A stretch of 64,000 nt of DNA from Psychrobacter sp. 72-O-c (GTDB lineage: Bacteria; Pseudomonadota; Gammaproteobacteria; Pseudomonadales; Moraxellaceae), in the NCBI RefSeq assembly GCF_904846605.1, contig NZ_CAJHBI010000012.1, positions 19,249 through 83,248 on the forward strand. Direction: 5' to 3'. The translations under genes were made by a program, and so were the position numbers. The notes under the pieces were generated by a model. That model saw only the letters and a list, made by a program, of their open reading frames with translations, searched no databases and was not told where the DNA came from. Below are positions 10,794 to 50,302 of this stretch, in pieces. The number at the start of each line of letters is the position of its first letter. The first letter of the stretch is position 1.

Positions 10794-11309
10794 TTATAAG
10801 CCTAACTGAGCGTTAATCTCACCGGTCATGTCTTTACCGGCGACGATAAAGATGCCATTGACGAAGTCGATCTCAAGCAAGGTAACGCCATCGTCTACAA
10901 TCTTGAGATAAGTGACGCTGTATGTCAGTTCGTGCTCGTTGATACTGCCAAGCTCAAGCTCACCTAATGGTAGGTTGGTGACTGAGCCACGCATATACAC
11001 ATCGCGCACAACATGGGTGCAAGTGTCTTGACGCTCATACGCACCAATGTAGCGGATGGGCAGCGCGTCAACACCGCAATAAGCAAGCTGGGTAATATGA
11101 CGGGCATCGACACCCGTGTAAGTCACCGTTGACTCCATGGCCTCAAAACCCATGTCCAACTTGATGTCGCCGATCATACCAGCGGCGCGATAGTCTTCTG
11201 TTTTCTTCACAATCTCTGGCAGTGTAATGGTCTTGGCTGTACCCGCGTAGCTGTCACCATCGACGCGGACGTTAAAGTTTTTTAGTACTGCAGGCAGTTG
11301 CTTAGCCAT
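10794..11309 (-). CDS. FII: Tail tube protein gpFII
   Basis: 171 aa, almost exactly the length of P2 FII (172 aa). The start LPAVLKNFNVRVDGDSYAG and the segments KTEDYRAAGMIGDIKLDMGFEAME and DVYMRGSVTNLPLGELELG are typical of the P2 inner tail tube. It forms the tube inside the contractile sheath and follows the C-terminal sheath half after 28 nt, with an AAAAGGAC Shine-Dalgarno. Confidence 0.93.
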   Translation of the reverse strand: MAKQLPAVLKNFNVRVDGDSYAGTAKTITLPEIVKKTEDYRAAGMIGDIKLDMGFEAMESTVTYTGVDARHITQLAYCGVDALPIRYIGAYERQDTCTHVVRDVYMRGSVTNLPLGELELGSINEHELTYSVTYLKIVDDGVTLLEIDFVNGIFIVAGKDMTGEINAQLGL

Positions 11310-11337: not shown

Positions 11338-11937
11338 TTAAGCGCCTTGTGCGATGAGCTTGCCAAAGTCGACTAGATAGCGGTCGGTAATGCGCTGATT
11401 GAGCTGGAGGTTTTCAAGCGTGGGCACTGGGGTGTAGTCATAATCAATGACCAGTAGGCCTTGGCTTAAATCTTGTTCATTGTTCTGCGCGTCGTTATAC
11501 CAGCAGCTTGCACCGATAAGCCAGCCTTTGGCCACAGTAGCGCGTAGCTTGGCATTGATTGAGTCGATAATATCGCGCACCAGTACCGGCGTTAGCGGTT
11601 GATCAATGAAGGGGAAGCAGCCATTGATAATAGTGTCAAGTAGCCACTGCGCTGTAAGCGTGCCGGTCTCAAAGGCAAAGCGCGGATCTGCTGAGCAAGT
11701 ACGGTTGCCCCAAAAGCGGAAGCCTTCGTGCTGAATCACCGAGGTGACATCATTCGCATTTAGGTAGCCGACTTCAGTGTTGGGGTCTTCCAAATCCCAA
11801 GTGCGTGGATGGACGATACCGCCCACGCCAGGGACAGGGACGTTAGAGATGGATTTGGTAAAGCTTGCAGGGTACTTTTCATCGATTAGGCAGCGCATTG
11901 CAAGTGCGGTGGCGATGATGGGTTTTAGTTGGGTCAT
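11338..11937 (-). CDS. FI: Tail sheath gpFI, C-terminal half (separated by a DGR)
   Basis: The 199 residues align with the second half of P2-type sheaths: ATALAMRCLIDEKYPASFTK, SISNVPVPGVGGI, then GFRFWGNRTCS and the end GLLVIDYDYTPVPTLENLQL, QRITDRYLVDF. The sheath normally continues from the N-terminal half at 14950..15507, but a DGR lies between. This half has its own ATG, an AAAAGGAGC Shine-Dalgarno 6 nt upstream, and a 4-nt overlap (ATGA) with the RT stop, so translation is probably coupled to the RT. The two halves total 384 aa against 396 in P2, so little was lost. Confidence 0.92.
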   Translation of the reverse strand: MTQLKPIIATALAMRCLIDEKYPASFTKSISNVPVPGVGGIVHPRTWDLEDPNTEVGYLNANDVTSVIQHEGFRFWGNRTCSADPRFAFETGTLTAQWLLDTIINGCFPFIDQPLTPVLVRDIIDSINAKLRATVAKGWLIGASCWYNDAQNNEQDLSQGLLVIDYDYTPVPTLENLQLNQRITDRYLVDFGKLIAQGA

Positions 11938-12956
11938 AGATTGCTCCTTTTGGGGTGATGTCTCTGATGATACGTTTTTGGTAGCTGACGATATAAGTCA
12001 GGATTTTCTTGCGCTGCGTAATTTAGCAAATGCTGCAACGACCGCGTTTTTGACGCATGAGCTAAATGTGATATAAACGAGTCAAGCTTGTTATTTCTTA
12101 CCGCCTTTCTTGACTTGTATAAACTATATTTTCTGATAAATCTAGCCGACCGCCATGTCCTGTAACCGCAGAAGTTAGCGCCTTTACGCGTGTTCGCAAT
12201 CGTCGACCTTGATAGCGTTAGTTTCAACTCGTTATTCACAAAGTCTGTTATCTTCGCCCTGTAGTCCAGTGCTTCGTCGCGGGTCAAACCGAACAACAAA
12301 AAATCATCAACATATCGGCAATATCCAGCGCGTGGTTGTAATTCTCTTTTAACGTAATGATCTAAAGGGTTCATATAAATTAACGCGTACATCTGAGACA
12401 ACAAATTGCCGATTGGTATACCAGTAGGCTCTTGGTACTCAGCAAACATCATCATTAAATTCACAAGCTTTTTATCTTTAATCTTTTTCTCAATTAAGCG
12501 TCTAAGCGTAGGGCGGTCAATGCTATAAAAGAACTTTTTAATATCCAGCTGTAATGTATATGTGCCTTGACCTGCTCGTCTAAGTGCTTGCTGTGTGTAG
12601 TCCGCCGCTTTATGTGTACCCAGTCCGACTCTGCACGCAAAAGACTGTTCGATAAATGTCTTTTCAAATACAGGCATAGCCTTAGCGTATACAGCGTGTT
12701 GAACCACGCAGTCTCTAAACGCTGGGGCATAGATATCCCTCTGTTTTGGTTCATAAATCGTAAACTTAAAATAAGGTCTTGGTTTATAAGTGCCCGTCAT
12801 TAGCTGGTTGTTTAGTGCGGATAACTCAGTTGCCAATTTCTTTTCAAATTCAAAACAACCGCGTCTGCCGCTTTTGCTTTTCTTAGCGTCTAAAAACCCT
12901 TGGTACAAGGAGTCTTTTGAGACGGTAGATTCATATAGGTTGCCCACTCTTTTCAT
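11934..12956 (-). CDS. DGR reverse transcriptase
   Basis: The 340-aa protein has the motifs of DGR (retron/group II-related) reverse transcriptases: LDIKKFFYSID (137-147, first catalytic Asp), GIPIGNLLSQ (179-188, with the SQ that marks DGR enzymes), YVDD (215-218, catalytic centre) and KGANFCGYR (258-266). It copies the TR RNA with errors at adenines, together with Avd, and the cDNA replaces VR. The start has AAGGAT 6 nt upstream. Active-site residues are intact. The gene ends in a 4-nt overlap with the C-terminal sheath half. Confidence 0.95.
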   Translation of the reverse strand: MKRVGNLYESTVSKDSLYQGFLDAKKSKSGRRGCFEFEKKLATELSALNNQLMTGTYKPRPYFKFTIYEPKQRDIYAPAFRDCVVQHAVYAKAMPVFEKTFIEQSFACRVGLGTHKAADYTQQALRRAGQGTYTLQLDIKKFFYSIDRPTLRRLIEKKIKDKKLVNLMMMFAEYQEPTGIPIGNLLSQMYALIYMNPLDHYVKRELQPRAGYCRYVDDFLLFGLTRDEALDYRAKITDFVNNELKLTLSRSTIANTRKGANFCGYRTWRSARFIRKYSLYKSRKAVRNNKLDSFISHLAHASKTRSLQHLLNYAAQENPDLYRQLPKTYHQRHHPKRSNL

Positions 12957-13077: not shown

Positions 13078-13094
13078 TTGAGGTGATGCCGAGT

Positions 13095-13208
13095 CCGCCC
13101 GCACACCAACGTTGTTGTTGCTATTCGTACGAGAATTATTGAAGTTGATGTTCCACACGCCCGCAAGCGCGCTGTTATTCCAATTGCCACCCGCAAGCGG
13201 GCACATAT
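13095..13208 (-). repeat. DGR template repeat (TR)
   Basis: 114 bp matching VR at 13660..13773 (offset 565). Read on the minus strand it is rich in AAT/AAC codons (NWNNS, NINFNNSRTNSNNN), 28 adenines in all, as expected of a template whose adenines are mutagenised. It differs from VR at 12 adenines and at two thymines. It lies between avd and RT, a common DGR order. The last 16 bp (minus sense GTTGGTGTGCGGGCGG) contain no adenine and are identical to VR. Confidence 0.95.
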
Positions 13209-13233
13209 TAAGACGCTTCCCTTTTTTACTTTG

Positions 13234-13617
13234 TTACTGCTTAACTGACTTTATCCAACCGCCAATAATCTGGCCGATTTCATCAATTCTCAGTGATATC
13301 GCTAGATACCTTTTTGTATTGAGTTTTTCAGTCGATGTTTTCTCGGTTTTTGGATGACCAAAATAGCCTAGCTCAAAAGCCAATCTAACCTGCATCCTTA
13401 GCTGTTCATGTCTAATATCTAAATTGGTCAAAGTCGTTTTCTTGTGATATCTCTTTTGCGCCTCTATGACATAATCGTACATCTCATAAGCTGTGTTTCT
13501 TATCCGCAGTGCCAAGCCATTTTTTTCATGACTTGGAAAGTGATTCAGATAGATATTCAACAACTTCATAGTCAGTACAAACTTACGATCAAGATTGGCT
13601 TCACTATCTACTGCCAT
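13234..13617 (-). CDS. avd: DGR accessory variability determinant (Avd)
   Basis: 127 aa, the usual size of Avd. It is all-helical, with the conserved RIRNTAYEMYDYVIEAQKRY, LDIRHEQLRMQVRLAFELGY and YLAISLRIDEIGQIIGGWIK helices of the Avd / 23S-IVP-like four-helix bundle. Avd forms a basic pentameric barrel that binds the RT and template RNA and is needed for mutagenic retrohoming. It has an AAGGAG Shine-Dalgarno 7 nt before the ATG and sits between VR and TR. Confidence 0.92.
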   Translation of the reverse strand: MAVDSEANLDRKFVLTMKLLNIYLNHFPSHEKNGLALRIRNTAYEMYDYVIEAQKRYHKKTTLTNLDIRHEQLRMQVRLAFELGYFGHPKTEKTSTEKLNTKRYLAISLRIDEIGQIIGGWIKSVKQ

Positions 13618-13642: not shown

Positions 13643-14974
13643 TTAAACACTATACAAGGCCGCCCGCACACCAACGCTGCTGCTGCTATCCGTACGAGAA
13701 TCACTGAAGTTGATGTCCCACACGCCCGCACGCGCGCCGTAACCCCAATAGCCACCCGCACGCGGGCACATATCATCGACACGGTTGTTATAAAAACGGT
13801 CATGACCAAATAGATCTGTGCCGGTAGTAGCGTCAACACCGCCAGTTTGCGGAATGCCTGCACAAGATGCTTGCCACTCTTTTCCAGTCAGGGCACTGGA
13901 GAATACTTGCTGAGTATCGGAACCTATGTACATACCCTGACTAGTGCCGGTCAATGCGCCGATACTCGTGCCTAGCGACTCATAGTTTTGTGCGATACCA
14001 GTCGCACCCCATGCATCATTTGCTGCTGTCGCACCACTGGTAAGTGACGCCGCTTTAGCAGAGGTTTTGAGTGCATAAAAATTGCCTGACAACTGAGTTA
14101 GACCTAAGCATATCTCAAACATATTGCCGTTCAGATCAGCCACGCCTGACGCTTGCCCGTTATGCGTGGTTTTGGCAAATAGTGTTGCTGAACCAGTTTT
14201 TCCCGCTTTTAGATAACCAGTTGCAGTATAGTTAACCGTTGCATCATCAACATCACCAAGCGCGTCGTTGTTACAGCCTTTTGGGTAGTTTGCAATGCCT
14301 GTTGCGTCATACCATGCGCAATTATCAATGCTAGTCGCCGCTTGAGCGTGCGCCATACTGAGTAGTGATAATGCACGTTGGATAAAGATGGTGGTAACAA
14401 AGAAAGCACCGCCGCGCGTTTTAACAGCATCAATAGCACCGGCGTATGTGTTCTCCGGCACACCATCCAAGCCGCTAAATGGGGCGTTGGTCGATGCAGA
14501 CGACAATGGGATGCCATTTTTAATTGAGCTTGCTGTTCCCGCGTTATTACTGGCTAAATACTTATCGACAAAGACGCCGTCTTTAAGCTTGCCGTCGTCA
14601 TAAAAGGCACGATGTACCGCATAACCCGCTTCGTTAGCTGCTGCCACGTCTGCAAAGTCGTACTTAGACTTAACATCACAAGAGTTTAGACCATACTCAG
14701 CATAACGGGGGCTATCCGCTCCACCCCAGCGATAATAAAACATAGGAACCCAAACCATTACAGAGTTGTCTGAGTATTGGTAGTTACCGTAGTTTACATC
14801 TCCAACGGTACGTGTGCCTGTCATTTCACTCATGCCAAGCGGCAAGTTATCAGTAGTGCCGATACCGAATGTGGCTGCGCCTTGGATGCCGATATTATTA
14901 AGAGTACTGTTTACTACAGGTGGTGGTGTTATTGGCCCCGGTAACGGGGCTACGGCTTTCCCGGCACACCCCAT
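13643..14974 (-). CDS. DGR target: variable C-type-lectin/FGE-like protein, probably made as a sheath fusion
   Basis: 443 aa from the ATG at 14974, inside the end of the sheath N-terminal half. The N-terminus is a Pro-rich linker (PLPGPITPPPVV). The body has FGE-sulfatase/C-type-lectin features such as VWVPMFYYRW and VADLNGNMFEICLGLTQLSG. Residues about 401-438 are the variable region, MCPRAGGYWGYGARAGVW and onward, ending VGVRAALYSV. The ATG has no Shine-Dalgarno. A -1 frameshift from the sheath frame (14956..14962) enters this frame at codon 7, giving a fusion of about 621 aa. It is the likely ligand-binding, hypervariable protein of the DGR. Confidence 0.92.
   Translation of the reverse strand: MGCAGKAVAPLPGPITPPPVVNSTLNNIGIQGAATFGIGTTDNLPLGMSEMTGTRTVGDVNYGNYQYSDNSVMVWVPMFYYRWGGADSPRYAEYGLNSCDVKSKYDFADVAAANEAGYAVHRAFYDDGKLKDGVFVDKYLASNNAGTASSIKNGIPLSSASTNAPFSGLDGVPENTYAGAIDAVKTRGGAFFVTTIFIQRALSLLSMAHAQAATSIDNCAWYDATGIANYPKGCNNDALGDVDDATVNYTATGYLKAGKTGSATLFAKTTHNGQASGVADLNGNMFEICLGLTQLSGNFYALKTSAKAASLTSGATAANDAWGATGIAQNYESLGTSIGALTGTSQGMYIGSDTQQVFSSALTGKEWQASCAGIPQTGGVDATTGTDLFGHDRFYNNRVDDMCPRAGGYWGYGARAGVWDINFSDSRTDSSSSVGVRAALYSV
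13660..13773 (-). repeat. DGR variable region (VR)
   Basis: The 114-bp counterpart of TR, forming the last variable codons of the target gene. Twelve positions that are A in TR are G (10) or T (2) here, changing N/S codons to Y, G, D and S. Two further differences are T in TR and G in VR. The adenine-free 3' end (minus sense, 13660..13675) is the presumed initiation of mutagenic homing (IMH) site. After it TR and VR diverge. Confidence 0.95.
14935..14962 (-). promoter_or_regulatory. -1 ribosomal frameshift signal joining sheath half to DGR target
   Basis: In the sheath frame the codons ccG GGA AAG form the heptamer G GGA AAG (14956..14962), the same heptamer used in lambda gpG/gpGT. After a 5-nt spacer comes a hairpin GCCCCG-TTAC-CGGGGC (14935..14950), whose first base is the last base of the sheath TAG. 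A -1 slip passes into the target-protein frame, which is open for 437 codons. The hairpin has no following T-run, so it is not a terminator. Confidence 0.82.
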
Positions 14975-46132: not shown

Positions 46133-46732
46133 TTAAGCGCCTTGTGCGATGAGCTTGCCAAAGTCGACTAGATAGCGGTCGGTAATGCGCTGATTGAGCT
46201 GGAGGTTTTCAAGCGTGGGCACTGGGGTGTAGTCATAATCAATGACCAGTAGGCCTTGGCTTAAATCTTGTTCATTGTTCTGCGCGTCGTTATACCAGCA
46301 GCTTGCACCGATAAGCCAGCCTTTGGCCACAGTAGCGCGTAGCTTGGCATTGATTGAGTCGATAATATCGCGCACCAGTACCGGCGTTAGCGGTTGATCA
46401 ATGAAGGGGAAGCAGCCATTGATAATAGTGTCAAGTAGCCACTGCGCTGTAAGCGTGCCGGTCTCAAAGGCAAAGCGCGGATCTGCTGAGCAAGTACGGT
46501 TGCCCCAAAAGCGGAAGCCTTCGTGCTGAATCACCGAGGTGACATCATTCGCATTTAGGTAGCCGACTTCAGTGTTGGGGTCTTCCAAATCCCAAGTGCG
46601 TGGATGGACGATACCGCCCACGCCAGGGACAGGGACGTTAGAGATGGATTTGGTAAAGCTTGCAGGGTACTTTTCATCGATTAGGCAGCGCATTGCAAGT
46701 GCGGTGGCGATGATGGGTTTTAGTTGGGTCAT
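46133..46732 (-). CDS. FI: Tail sheath gpFI, C-terminal half (second copy)
   Basis: Identical to 11338..11937, again with the ATGA overlap with the RT. Confidence 0.92.
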   Translation of the reverse strand: MTQLKPIIATALAMRCLIDEKYPASFTKSISNVPVPGVGGIVHPRTWDLEDPNTEVGYLNANDVTSVIQHEGFRFWGNRTCSADPRFAFETGTLTAQWLLDTIINGCFPFIDQPLTPVLVRDIIDSINAKLRATVAKGWLIGASCWYNDAQNNEQDLSQGLLVIDYDYTPVPTLENLQLNQRITDRYLVDFGKLIAQGA

Positions 46733-47751
46733 AGATTGCTCCTTTTGGGGTGATGTCTCTGATGATACGTTTTTGGTAGCTGACGATATAAGTCAGGATT
46801 TTCTTGCGCTGCGTAATTTAGCAAATGCTGCAACGACCGCGTTTTTGACGCATGAGCTAAATGTGATATAAACGAGTCAAGCTTGTTATTTCTTACCGCC
46901 TTTCTTGACTTGTATAAACTATATTTTCTGATAAATCTAGCCGACCGCCATGTCCTGTAACCGCAGAAGTTAGCGCCTTTACGCGTGTTCGCAATCGTCG
47001 ACCTTGATAGCGTTAGTTTCAACTCGTTATTCACAAAGTCTGTTATCTTCGCCCTGTAGTCCAGTGCTTCGTCGCGGGTCAAACCGAACAACAAAAAATC
47101 ATCAACATATCGGCAATATCCAGCGCGTGGTTGTAATTCTCTTTTAACGTAATGATCTAAAGGGTTCATATAAATTAACGCGTACATCTGAGACAACAAA
47201 TTGCCGATTGGTATACCAGTAGGCTCTTGGTACTCAGCAAACATCATCATTAAATTCACAAGCTTTTTATCTTTAATCTTTTTCTCAATTAAGCGTCTAA
47301 GCGTAGGGCGGTCAATGCTATAAAAGAACTTTTTAATATCCAGCTGTAATGTATATGTGCCTTGACCTGCTCGTCTAAGTGCTTGCTGTGTGTAGTCCGC
47401 CGCTTTATGTGTACCCAGTCCGACTCTGCACGCAAAAGACTGTTCGATAAATGTCTTTTCAAATACAGGCATAGCCTTAGCGTATACAGCGTGTTGAACC
47501 ACGCAGTCTCTAAACGCTGGGGCATAGATATCCCTCTGTTTTGGTTCATAAATCGTAAACTTAAAATAAGGTCTTGGTTTATAAGTGCCCGTCATTAGCT
47601 GGTTGTTTAGTGCGGATAACTCAGTTGCCAATTTCTTTTCAAATTCAAAACAACCGCGTCTGCCGCTTTTGCTTTTCTTAGCGTCTAAAAACCCTTGGTA
47701 CAAGGAGTCTTTTGAGACGGTAGATTCATATAGGTTGCCCACTCTTTTCAT
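46729..47751 (-). CDS. DGR reverse transcriptase (second copy)
   Basis: Identical to 11934..12956; YVDD and the GIPIGNLLSQ signature are intact. Confidence 0.95.
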   Translation of the reverse strand: MKRVGNLYESTVSKDSLYQGFLDAKKSKSGRRGCFEFEKKLATELSALNNQLMTGTYKPRPYFKFTIYEPKQRDIYAPAFRDCVVQHAVYAKAMPVFEKTFIEQSFACRVGLGTHKAADYTQQALRRAGQGTYTLQLDIKKFFYSIDRPTLRRLIEKKIKDKKLVNLMMMFAEYQEPTGIPIGNLLSQMYALIYMNPLDHYVKRELQPRAGYCRYVDDFLLFGLTRDEALDYRAKITDFVNNELKLTLSRSTIANTRKGANFCGYRTWRSARFIRKYSLYKSRKAVRNNKLDSFISHLAHASKTRSLQHLLNYAAQENPDLYRQLPKTYHQRHHPKRSNL

Positions 47752-47889
47752 AAATATCCTTAAAAAAGATAACGTGCCTGACTTTCGATTTATCTACTAG
47801 AAATGCACGCTTATTCCGATTTCGCTTACAGCAGGAAAACGTCTCCCTTGGCACCAGACGACAACGTGTCGTTTGAGGTGATGCCGAGT

Positions 47890-48003
47890 CCGCCCGCACA
47901 CCAACGTTGTTGTTGCTATTCGTACGAGAATTATTGAAGTTGATGTTCCACACGCCCGCAAGCGCGCTGTTATTCCAATTGCCACCCGCAAGCGGGCACA
48001 TAT
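47890..48003 (-). repeat. DGR template repeat (second copy)
   Basis: Identical to 13095..13208, including the two CTTG tetraloop positions. The spacer hairpin recurs at 47858..47872. Confidence 0.95.
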
Positions 48004-48028
48004 TAAGACGCTTCCCTTTTTTACTTTG

Positions 48029-48412
48029 TTACTGCTTAACTGACTTTATCCAACCGCCAATAATCTGGCCGATTTCATCAATTCTCAGTGATATCGCTAG
48101 ATACCTTTTTGTATTGAGTTTTTCAGTCGATGTTTTCTCGGTTTTTGGATGACCAAAATAGCCTAGCTCAAAAGCCAATCTAACCTGCATCCTTAGCTGT
48201 TCATGTCTAATATCTAAATTGGTCAAAGTCGTTTTCTTGTGATATCTCTTTTGCGCCTCTATGACATAATCGTACATCTCATAAGCTGTGTTTCTTATCC
48301 GCAGTGCCAAGCCATTTTTTTCATGACTTGGAAAGTGATTCAGATAGATATTCAACAACTTCATAGTCAGTACAAACTTACGATCAAGATTGGCTTCACT
48401 ATCTACTGCCAT
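48029..48412 (-). CDS. avd: DGR accessory protein Avd (second copy)
   Basis: Identical to 13234..13617. Confidence 0.92.
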   Translation of the reverse strand: MAVDSEANLDRKFVLTMKLLNIYLNHFPSHEKNGLALRIRNTAYEMYDYVIEAQKRYHKKTTLTNLDIRHEQLRMQVRLAFELGYFGHPKTEKTSTEKLNTKRYLAISLRIDEIGQIIGGWIKSVKQ

Positions 48413-48437
48413 TTCAAACTCCTTCGCTATCGCTCAG

Positions 48438-49769
48438 TTAAACACTATACAAGGCCGCCCGCACACCAACGCTGCTGCTGCTATCCGTACGAGAATCACT
48501 GAAGTTGATGTCCCACACGCCCGCACGCGCGCCGTAACCCCAATAGCCACCCGCACGCGGGCACATATCATCGACACGGTTGTTATAAAAACGGTCATGA
48601 CCAAATAGATCTGTGCCGGTAGTAGCGTCAACACCGCCAGTTTGCGGAATGCCTGCACAAGATGCTTGCCACTCTTTTCCAGTCAGGGCACTGGAGAATA
48701 CTTGCTGAGTATCGGAACCTATGTACATACCCTGACTAGTGCCGGTCAATGCGCCGATACTCGTGCCTAGCGACTCATAGTTTTGTGCGATACCAGTCGC
48801 ACCCCATGCATCATTTGCTGCTGTCGCACCACTGGTAAGTGACGCCGCTTTAGCAGAGGTTTTGAGTGCATAAAAATTGCCTGACAACTGAGTTAGACCT
48901 AAGCATATCTCAAACATATTGCCGTTCAGATCAGCCACGCCTGACGCTTGCCCGTTATGCGTGGTTTTGGCAAATAGTGTTGCTGAACCAGTTTTTCCCG
49001 CTTTTAGATAACCAGTTGCAGTATAGTTAACCGTTGCATCATCAACATCACCAAGCGCGTCGTTGTTACAGCCTTTTGGGTAGTTTGCAATGCCTGTTGC
49101 GTCATACCATGCGCAATTATCAATGCTAGTCGCCGCTTGAGCGTGCGCCATACTGAGTAGTGATAATGCACGTTGGATAAAGATGGTGGTAACAAAGAAA
49201 GCACCGCCGCGCGTTTTAACAGCATCAATAGCACCGGCGTATGTGTTCTCCGGCACACCATCCAAGCCGCTAAATGGGGCGTTGGTCGATGCAGACGACA
49301 ATGGGATGCCATTTTTAATTGAGCTTGCTGTTCCCGCGTTATTACTGGCTAAATACTTATCGACAAAGACGCCGTCTTTAAGCTTGCCGTCGTCATAAAA
49401 GGCACGATGTACCGCATAACCCGCTTCGTTAGCTGCTGCCACGTCTGCAAAGTCGTACTTAGACTTAACATCACAAGAGTTTAGACCATACTCAGCATAA
49501 CGGGGGCTATCCGCTCCACCCCAGCGATAATAAAACATAGGAACCCAAACCATTACAGAGTTGTCTGAGTATTGGTAGTTACCGTAGTTTACATCTCCAA
49601 CGGTACGTGTGCCTGTCATTTCACTCATGCCAAGCGGCAAGTTATCAGTAGTGCCGATACCGAATGTGGCTGCGCCTTGGATGCCGATATTATTAAGAGT
49701 ACTGTTTACTACAGGTGGTGGTGTTATTGGCCCCGGTAACGGGGCTACGGCTTTCCCGGCACACCCCAT
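48438..49769 (-). CDS. DGR variable target protein (second copy)
   Basis: Identical to 13643..14974, variable residues included, so no diversification has occurred since the duplication. Confidence 0.92.
   Translation of the reverse strand: MGCAGKAVAPLPGPITPPPVVNSTLNNIGIQGAATFGIGTTDNLPLGMSEMTGTRTVGDVNYGNYQYSDNSVMVWVPMFYYRWGGADSPRYAEYGLNSCDVKSKYDFADVAAANEAGYAVHRAFYDDGKLKDGVFVDKYLASNNAGTASSIKNGIPLSSASTNAPFSGLDGVPENTYAGAIDAVKTRGGAFFVTTIFIQRALSLLSMAHAQAATSIDNCAWYDATGIANYPKGCNNDALGDVDDATVNYTATGYLKAGKTGSATLFAKTTHNGQASGVADLNGNMFEICLGLTQLSGNFYALKTSAKAASLTSGATAANDAWGATGIAQNYESLGTSIGALTGTSQGMYIGSDTQQVFSSALTGKEWQASCAGIPQTGGVDATTGTDLFGHDRFYNNRVDDMCPRAGGYWGYGARAGVWDINFSDSRTDSSSSVGVRAALYSV
48455..48568 (-). 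repeat. DGR variable region (second copy)
   Basis: Identical base for base to the VR at 13660..13773. Confidence 0.95.
49730..49757 (-). promoter_or_regulatory. -1 frameshift signal sheath/DGR target (second copy)
   Basis: Identical to 14935..14962: G GGA AAG at 49751..49757, hairpin at 49730..49745. Confidence 0.82.
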
Positions 49770-50302
49770 TCATTATCAATAAGACACAATTCACGGTCGC
49801 CATAGGTATCGCGATAAGCCGTAATTAATTCTTTATCAGTGATTAGTGTGCCATCGATATTACGCGGTGAAGCGTAGACCATGCAGCGACGGCGCTTAGC
49901 GATAGATACCAATTTAAGCACCACTTCTGGCGTGTCAATCTCTGGTGCGCCCAGACGTTTAGGCGTCAAGCCAAAGCGCGATTGGCAGGTCAGTAGCACG
50001 TCCAGTATATTGACATCGAATGCGGCGTCGAATGAGGTGTCAACTCGCAAGATAACGACGGTAGGATTGTGAATATCACGGATGGTTTGTAGGCAGTCGC
50101 CCAATGTGCCTTCGATGCCTGCCTTGTCGATATTATCCTGAGTGATGCCCGTTAATAAGACCGGTGTATCGAGCGGATACATATCAGCGTCAGCGTCAGT
50201 ACTGGTAACGACCAAGCCAATGACGCTGACATTGGCATTGCGCATGGGCAATATGCCTTGAACCAACTCTTGAGCGGTGATGCCGTGGTGAAATGTAGCC
50301 AT
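49745..50302 (-). CDS. FI: Tail sheath gpFI, N-terminal half (second copy)
   Basis: Identical to 14950..15507. Confidence 0.92.
   Translation of the reverse strand: MATFHHGITAQELVQGILPMRNANVSVIGLVVTSTDADADMYPLDTPVLLTGITQDNIDKAGIEGTLGDCLQTIRDIHNPTVVILRVDTSFDAAFDVNILDVLLTCQSRFGLTPKRLGAPEIDTPEVVLKLVSIAKRRRCMVYASPRNIDGTLITDKELITAYRDTYGDRELCLIDNEWGVPGKP

Follow-up and report, generated by a model that had tools for sequence, protein, structure and literature searches.

A P2-type tail sheath gene interrupted by a complete DGR (target, Avd, template repeat (TR) and reverse transcriptase (RT)) was identified in a Psychrobacter prophage in the window, the whole 64,000-nucleotide stretch of DNA that was analysed. 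The sheath gene is more than truncated: the DGR lies inside it, between an N-half and a C-half, and the C-half is kept as a gene of its own. It is very probable, from the comparisons described below, that the DGR split the gene into two separately started halves and that slippage at the heptamer G GGA AAG, a predicted event, fuses the N-half to the variable DGR protein in a fraction of translation. According to the proposed mechanism, most N-halves would terminate at the TAG stop codon, and an N-half and a C-half would assemble as one sheath subunit. In a minority of N-halves the variable domain would be attached where a loop links the two sheath halves and would point outward, and the displayed domains would be diversified by the DGR and bind host surfaces. 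Both the slippage at the heptamer and its rate are presumed in this scheme.

A sheath gene divided by a DGR

The features of the locus are listed in Table 1. The N-half and the C-half are homologous to the corresponding parts of P2-type contractile sheaths and stand before the tube gene, but they are encoded by two ORFs rather than as a single polypeptide, and the locus is therefore regarded as a split variant and not as an ordinary P2-type sheath. The C-half is a separate ORF, 3,013 nt past the N-half stop, with its own Shine-Dalgarno sequence (anti-SD energy -7.9) and its own ATG, which overlaps the RT stop. This intact gene beyond the DGR had been overlooked in the first-pass annotation. 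No other sheath C-domain was found in the window's own genome.

Table 1. Features of the split sheath locus (window coordinates)
Feature	Position	Strand	Remarks
Tail sheath N-half, 185 aa	14950..15507	(-)	
Candidate slippery heptamer G GGA AAG	14956..14962	(-)	Sheath frame; conserved in relatives
Spacer CCGTA, 5 nt	14951-14955	(-)	Between heptamer and hairpin
0-frame stop TAG	14950..14952	(-)	One codon past heptamer
6-bp all-GC hairpin GCCCCG-TTAC-CGGGGC	14935..14950	(-)	5 nt downstream of heptamer
DGR target protein, -1 frame ORF, 443 aa	13643..14974	(-)	Own ATG without Shine-Dalgarno
Variable repeat (VR)	13655..13775	(-)	Comparison with TR
Avd accessory protein	13234..13617	(-)	PF22296 bAvd, phrog_3206
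Template repeat (TR)	13090..13210	(-)	Comparison with VR
DGR reverse transcriptase	11934..12956	(-)	PF00078, phrog_1423
Tail sheath C-half, 199 aa	11338..11937	(-)	PF17482; phrog_23 positions 284-470; pyocin sheath 205-381
Tail tube FII, next gene	10794..11309	(-)	PF04985
Identical second copy of whole cassette	46133..50302	(-)	N-half 49745-50302 to C-half 46133-46732

Two one-chain sheaths, P0137 (382 aa) and P0139 (372 aa), show 74%/86% and 63%/76% identity to the N-half/C-half, respectively, and are the two proteins with a C-domain Pfam label among the 120 matches listed (of 150). The junction reads NEW-LDTVTGVDMVKT-KPIIATA in P0137 and NDW-ASDQ-PIIATA in P0139; at the same junction the window reads NEW-GVPGKP, stop, DGR, MTQL-KPIIATA. 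Aligned in this way, P0137 and P0139 represent the empty site in close unsplit relatives. A related sheath ORF of 390 aa, also one chain, is present in locus L009. The split maps near residue 324 of the Milano sheath in a model alignment with an imprecise end, and thereby falls in the sheath body domain (204-380) close to Cys327, which bears on the proposed outward position of the junction. This cysteine is reported to be bonded to the tail spike in the accessible part of PMC10811340.

The RT and Avd genes adjoin the target, and the TR/VR differences are mostly adenine-specific, both of which are DGR features. Of the 121 positions of TR and VR, 17 differ, and TR has an adenine at 14 of these; the three differences off adenines are two T-to-G changes in the same context and one C-to-T change. 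The window target gave no Pfam match and no Ig-family match. A profile of target relatives matched TaqVP (5vf4) across 48 positions (E 8.4e-5), and the DGR target domain is probably lectin-like. Another DGR-target homologue is present in the window's own genome (G000:C9:57407-58651; 59% identical to P0192). Among the 120 target homologues listed (of 2,395), none has a P2-type N-half in frame with the DGR target.

A DGR within the sheath gene was ruled out as a family-wide trait, RT and Avd being absent from every other split-sheath locus searched for both (L003-L043); RT is also absent from the second-lineage loci L077-L092 described below. The close relatives of the RT are found in other places: one lies directly upstream of an intact 404-aa sheath-like ORF (L097), and a locus with the same target, Avd and RT gene order as the window stands beside another tail gene (L098).

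Two identical prophage copies lie in tandem (window 1-64000; contig C12 13633-83248), each bounded by the 26-bp TTCGAATCTCTCCGTCTCCTCCAAAT, which is likely a tRNA-end attachment core. The copies are offset by 34,795 bp and show 0 mismatches over the 29,205 bp compared. As the contig stops exactly at the end of the third core, the two copies may be those of a genuine tandem lysogen or may have arisen in the assembly. Nine other prophage proteins were tested, and each matches its PHROGs family.

Candidate frameshifting at the end of the N-half

In the sheath frame, the minus strand at the end of the N-half reads GAA TGG GGT GTG CCG GGA AAG CCG TAG. A -1 frameshift had been proposed here in the first-pass annotation, and the heptamer, the 5-nt spacer and the 6-bp GC hairpin on which it relied are all present. 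The -1 frame past the heptamer is that of the DGR target ORF and holds 437 open codons after GK (first residues AVAPLPGPITPPP), again in agreement with the annotation, and the predicted fusion is 621 aa long (184 sheath residues and 437 target residues). The occurrence of heptamer, stop and open -1 frame at this site is beyond chance. The hairpin 16-mer has an energy of -11.1 kcal/mol (z = -2.3 for the 50-nt region); it exists in the window, but its conservation does not hold, z being below -2 in five of 19 loci, the window included. A conserved stem-loop was rejected as a hallmark of the site, as the structures differ and several loci have none nearby. The hairpin is a local feature and the heptamer region is the conserved part, a distinction that had been missed.

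The N-half end was compared in 33 loci of the window's lineage; the window is counted among them, as are the look-alike contigs L005, L028 and L043, with further duplicates excluded. A slippery heptamer is found in 21 loci, which have G GGA AAG (20) or, in L006, A AAA AAG, from which the -1 frame likewise leads into cargo. An in-frame extension (307-389 aa) is present in seven, two of which (L014 and L017) retain G GGA AAG; four have a stop without a heptamer, and one is cut off (L008). The stop of the four heptamer-less loci lies 0.8-1.2 kb before the C-half, and the gap in L003 holds a 237-aa ORF with its own start. N-halves of the 19 other G GGA AAG loci are 54-82% identical to that of the window. 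Of the 32 loci in which the N-half end is contained, 29 have a separate C-half ORF downstream, and no C-half was found before the contig end in L023, L024 and L035.

Codon use was examined by aligning 19 loci and reducing them to eight representatives under 90% nucleotide identity, with L006 lost at clustering. GGA and AAG occupy the heptamer in 8/8 representatives each, and only four of 72 invariant degenerate residues use one codon throughout, GGA and AAG among them. Specificity was assessed on 25 related loci together with one of the window's two prophage copies, 26 sequences that contain 310 ORFs of at least 150 aa. An in-frame G GGA AAG within the last six codons occurs in 16 of these ORFs, all 16 of which are sheath N-halves; the heptamer is found in frame 20 times in total, four of them outside terminal positions.

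Among the 21 slippery loci, 17 have a -1 frame open for more than 100 codons, whereas the +1 frame is never open for more than 32. The exceptions are L025 (30 codons beyond the stop), L027 and L028 (23 codons) and L024, which is at a contig end. For the first 56-60 codons past the heptamer in two groups of relatives, the pN/pS of the -1 frame is 0.095 (five loci) and 0.203 (four loci), against 0.97-3.98 for the other frames, which points to purifying selection on the -1 frame in both groups tested. Variable columns at codons 3-17 of the first group number 1, 2 and 8 by codon position, and four of the five members have no start codon before or within this stretch, the exception being L007 with its upstream GTG. 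As in programmed -1 frameshifting, a 0-frame heptamer stands before the stop and is conserved beyond amino-acid need; coding selection on the -1 ORF and the lack of another start are found in relatives, and the window itself has an ATG. The -1 fusion is favoured because the heptamer is conserved, the -1 and not the +1 frame is open, -1 ORFs are startless in many relatives, the -1 frame is under purifying selection in the groups tested and natural in-frame fusions exist at the same junction. The comparative evidence thus supports the earlier proposal that the N-half is fused to the variable protein.

The target might alternatively be a free protein only, made by ribosomes that end at TAG and restart at the ATG at 14974, in which case the heptamer would be irrelevant. 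This ATG precedes the heptamer by four codons and the stop by 22 nt, and a start four to five codons before the heptamer is found in seven of 19 -1 ORFs (ATG in the window, L030, L031 and L040; GTG in L004, L007 and L018). None of these starts has a Shine-Dalgarno sequence (anti-SD +0.2 to +0.6). The absence noted in the first-pass annotation was borne out by the value of +0.6 for the window target, compared with -5.6 for the N-half, -8.3 for Avd, -5.9 for RT and -7.9 for the C-half; gpV (+1.2) is likewise without one, and gpW (-2.7) and the fibre gene (-3.2) are weak. ATG, GTG and TTG are absent at or before the heptamer in 12 of the 19 -1 ORFs examined, and these loci still retain the heptamer. 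The first start codon lies 18-63 codons into the -1 ORF in L006, L023, L026, L033, L035 and L041, and in L037 a TTG stands 23 codons into the ORF, with a Shine-Dalgarno-like energy that is good (-6.4). Reinitiation, which also leaves the invariant GGA AAG codons and the in-frame fusions unexplained, is considered unlikely. Transcriptional slippage may occur at the A-run of L006 and is unlikely at G GGA AAG.

A frameshift product that acts as a chaperone or regulator, as lambda gpGT does, and is not built into the virion is considered improbable. The best-known phage slippage product is indeed a tail chaperone that is absent from the virion, but the cargos here are adhesin-like (the DGR target, presumably Ig-like Hoc-like and major-tail matches, and a weak tail-fibre match), and the in-frame forms would place cargo on every N-half. 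A defective remnant, in which the sheath gene was merely disrupted by the DGR, would fit the tandem duplication of the prophage, the 390-aa ORF of L009 and the description of Peduovirinae sheaths as one chain and one domain in the accessible part of PMC9230969. Its probability is put very low in view of the intact C-half with its own start and Shine-Dalgarno sequence, the separate C-half in 29 of 32 loci, the 110 N-halves in the databank and the nine phage proteins that match PHROGs families. A broken and decaying sheath was ruled out by the size of the split-sheath family and its coding constraint.

Relation to known systems

The lambda gpG/gpGT frameshift takes place at the heptamer G GGA AAG, and its product is a tail chaperone. 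The heptamer and the -1 direction are alike in the window, whereas the carrier in the window is a sheath. The sheath subunit is usually viewed as one rigid motor protein. The available part of PMC5009743 describes G_GGA_AAG as highly shift-prone in E. coli and reports that capsid or tail proteins of phages, among them the T3 capsid and phage A2, gain Ig-like domains by frameshifting. The proposed system resembles these in its minority C-terminal extension by frameshift, its in-frame versions and the exchange of cargo between phages; unlike them, it has as carrier one half of a split sheath, with the other half as its own gene, and as cargo a DGR target. Phage DGRs (Bordetella phage type; TaqVP, in the part of PMC6328139 available) share the target, Avd, TR and RT order and the adenine-biased TR/VR differences. 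Unlike those, the window DGR lies inside a sheath gene, and its target is joined via a candidate slip site instead of being a well-started gene.

The multi-domain sheaths of T4 and Milano carry extra domains outside the conserved core, for which a role in adsorption has been suggested (accessible parts of PMC9230969 and PMC10811340). These sheaths are single chains, whereas that of the window is encoded by two ORFs. The modelled Peduovirinae sheaths of PMC9230969 are one-domain, and the words 'split' and 'frameshift' are absent from its available text. No split or frameshifted sheath was evident among the open-licence papers listed, as judged by titles and abstract openings. Frameshift-added display domains (PMC5009743) and DGR-varied proteins (PMC6328139) are both known already from the available parts of these sources; within the same range of titles and abstract openings, the new part is the split sheath as a carrier of displayed cargo. 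If the proposed display is correct, a contractile sheath would tolerate a two-chain build with foreign domains in between, phages would set the adhesin dose via ribosome slippage, DGR diversification would act along the tail shaft, and the role of shaft-borne domains in adsorption would become testable.

Cargo, related loci and other tail proteins

The split and its junction are common to a large family of phages whose cargos are of many kinds, which the first-pass annotation had overlooked. The databank contains 110 proteins that match the N-half at 0.55-1.75 times the query length, four of which are fragments. Their C-terminal ends are GK with 0-3 further residues (48), KK or KKK (7), a short SY[IVA]-like tail (14) or other (17), and 24 of the 110 have at least 230 aa. 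In many N-halves (P0054, P0059, P0067, P0029) the C-terminus is a short tail, for example KPSYIYLGE, and a similar peptide (VSYVYLGEDA) is reached in L027 and L028 in the -1 frame only. The short tail is possibly a docking strand for separately made cargo. The phage and plasmid collections contain 289 and 82 matching records, respectively, all below 60% identity; tail sheath is the annotation of most of the 40 phage and 20 plasmid records listed, and the others are labelled gp16, gp19 or hypothetical, are unannotated or have no feature.

The cargo of the window is the DGR target alone. In L004, a domain weakly matching Hoc-like and major-tail families precedes the same target as in the window, and the DGR target is also matched in the cargos of L015 and L037. 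Matches of the L004 and L030 cargos to the Hoc-like and major-tail families, which we take to be Ig-like, have E values of 3e-5 to 5e-3. The cargos of L018, L041 and L030 consist of domains that gave no match or that include a part weakly resembling Ig-like domains. Cargo repeats DAYQPTVKPLDITLK occur in -1 ORFs, and in L006 they are followed by separate ORFs of tail-fibre families. Compared with the window, L015 shows 54% identity in the N-half, 65% in the C-half and 78% in the target, and L037 shows 54% in the N-half and 73% in the target. By such comparisons, cargo and sheath appear to differ in history, which indicates cassette exchange.

A wider reading, to which slightly better than even chances are given, is that the split sheath of Moraxellaceae phages is a plug-in display platform of two permanent chains. 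Adhesins of several kinds (DGR lectins, Ig-like domains, repeat arrays and fibre docks) would be interchangeable at a socket formed by the end of the first chain, where they would be joined by -1 slippage for partial display and in frame for all subunits. The window adhesin would be self-diversifying and would thus give an evolving receptor-binding surface along the whole tail shaft, tip included. The same cassettes would also enter a second, unrelated sheath-like tail protein at the GK junction.

The N-half profile matched in 59 of 348 genomes in a family-wide search. For a second lineage, 15 genomes outside the window's genus and Moraxella were picked in which the ORF was far from the usual 391-411 aa, and 12 of them were examined (G162, G221 and G281 were left out). 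The sheath is split in 11 of the 12: six have a -1 ORF that stays open for 115-424 codons beyond the stop, four have in-frame extensions, and the remaining one is L081, a split sheath without any cargo in which the N-half stop overlaps the C-half ATG. In the twelfth, L088, the sheath is a single chain of 513 aa in which about 120 residues are added at the split site. Candidate slip sites of this lineage are G GGA AAG in L077 and T TTT TTG with a 10-bp hairpin in L079. L082, L083 and L085 have a G-run (GGGGGAG) before a strong hairpin, and no canonical heptamer was found in their frame overlap, GAC TCG GGG GAG TAA; L086 has no clear candidate slip site at the split.

The second-lineage query also retrieved Bracchivirus U2F1 (MF417929.1), which contains a split sheath with GTT TTT TTG GGA AAG and a 465-codon -1 ORF and is annotated as three separate genes: sheath, hypothetical, and hypothetical noted as similar to PF04984. 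No DGR is present among the 11 features shown. If the proposed fusion is correct, hypothetical proteins in public phage records, of which this is one example, would be explained.

A 92-aa module matching the N-terminus of the phrog_1036 tail sheath was observed in a different tail protein (L125 1405-1680; L126 3417-3692, minus strand). Its last residues are GSSGK, followed by a stop, and coincide with G GGA AAG; from there an open -1 frame runs on for 177 codons in L125 and for 85 in L126, where it is weakly like KPLDITL repeats. Module copies with heptamer and stop number two of 13 in one set and none of 26 in another. In L133 (from 2734), in-frame cargo is joined to such a module right at GK and is 85% identical to the cargo of the sheath fusion P0123. 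P0158 showed no meaningful match to the phrog_205 sheath. In L111 (1989-3602), a DGR-type target is succeeded first by a 172-aa ORF that matches phrog_205 in its C-terminal part and then by a phrog_205 sheath that is intact, and this is possibly a split in a further sheath family.
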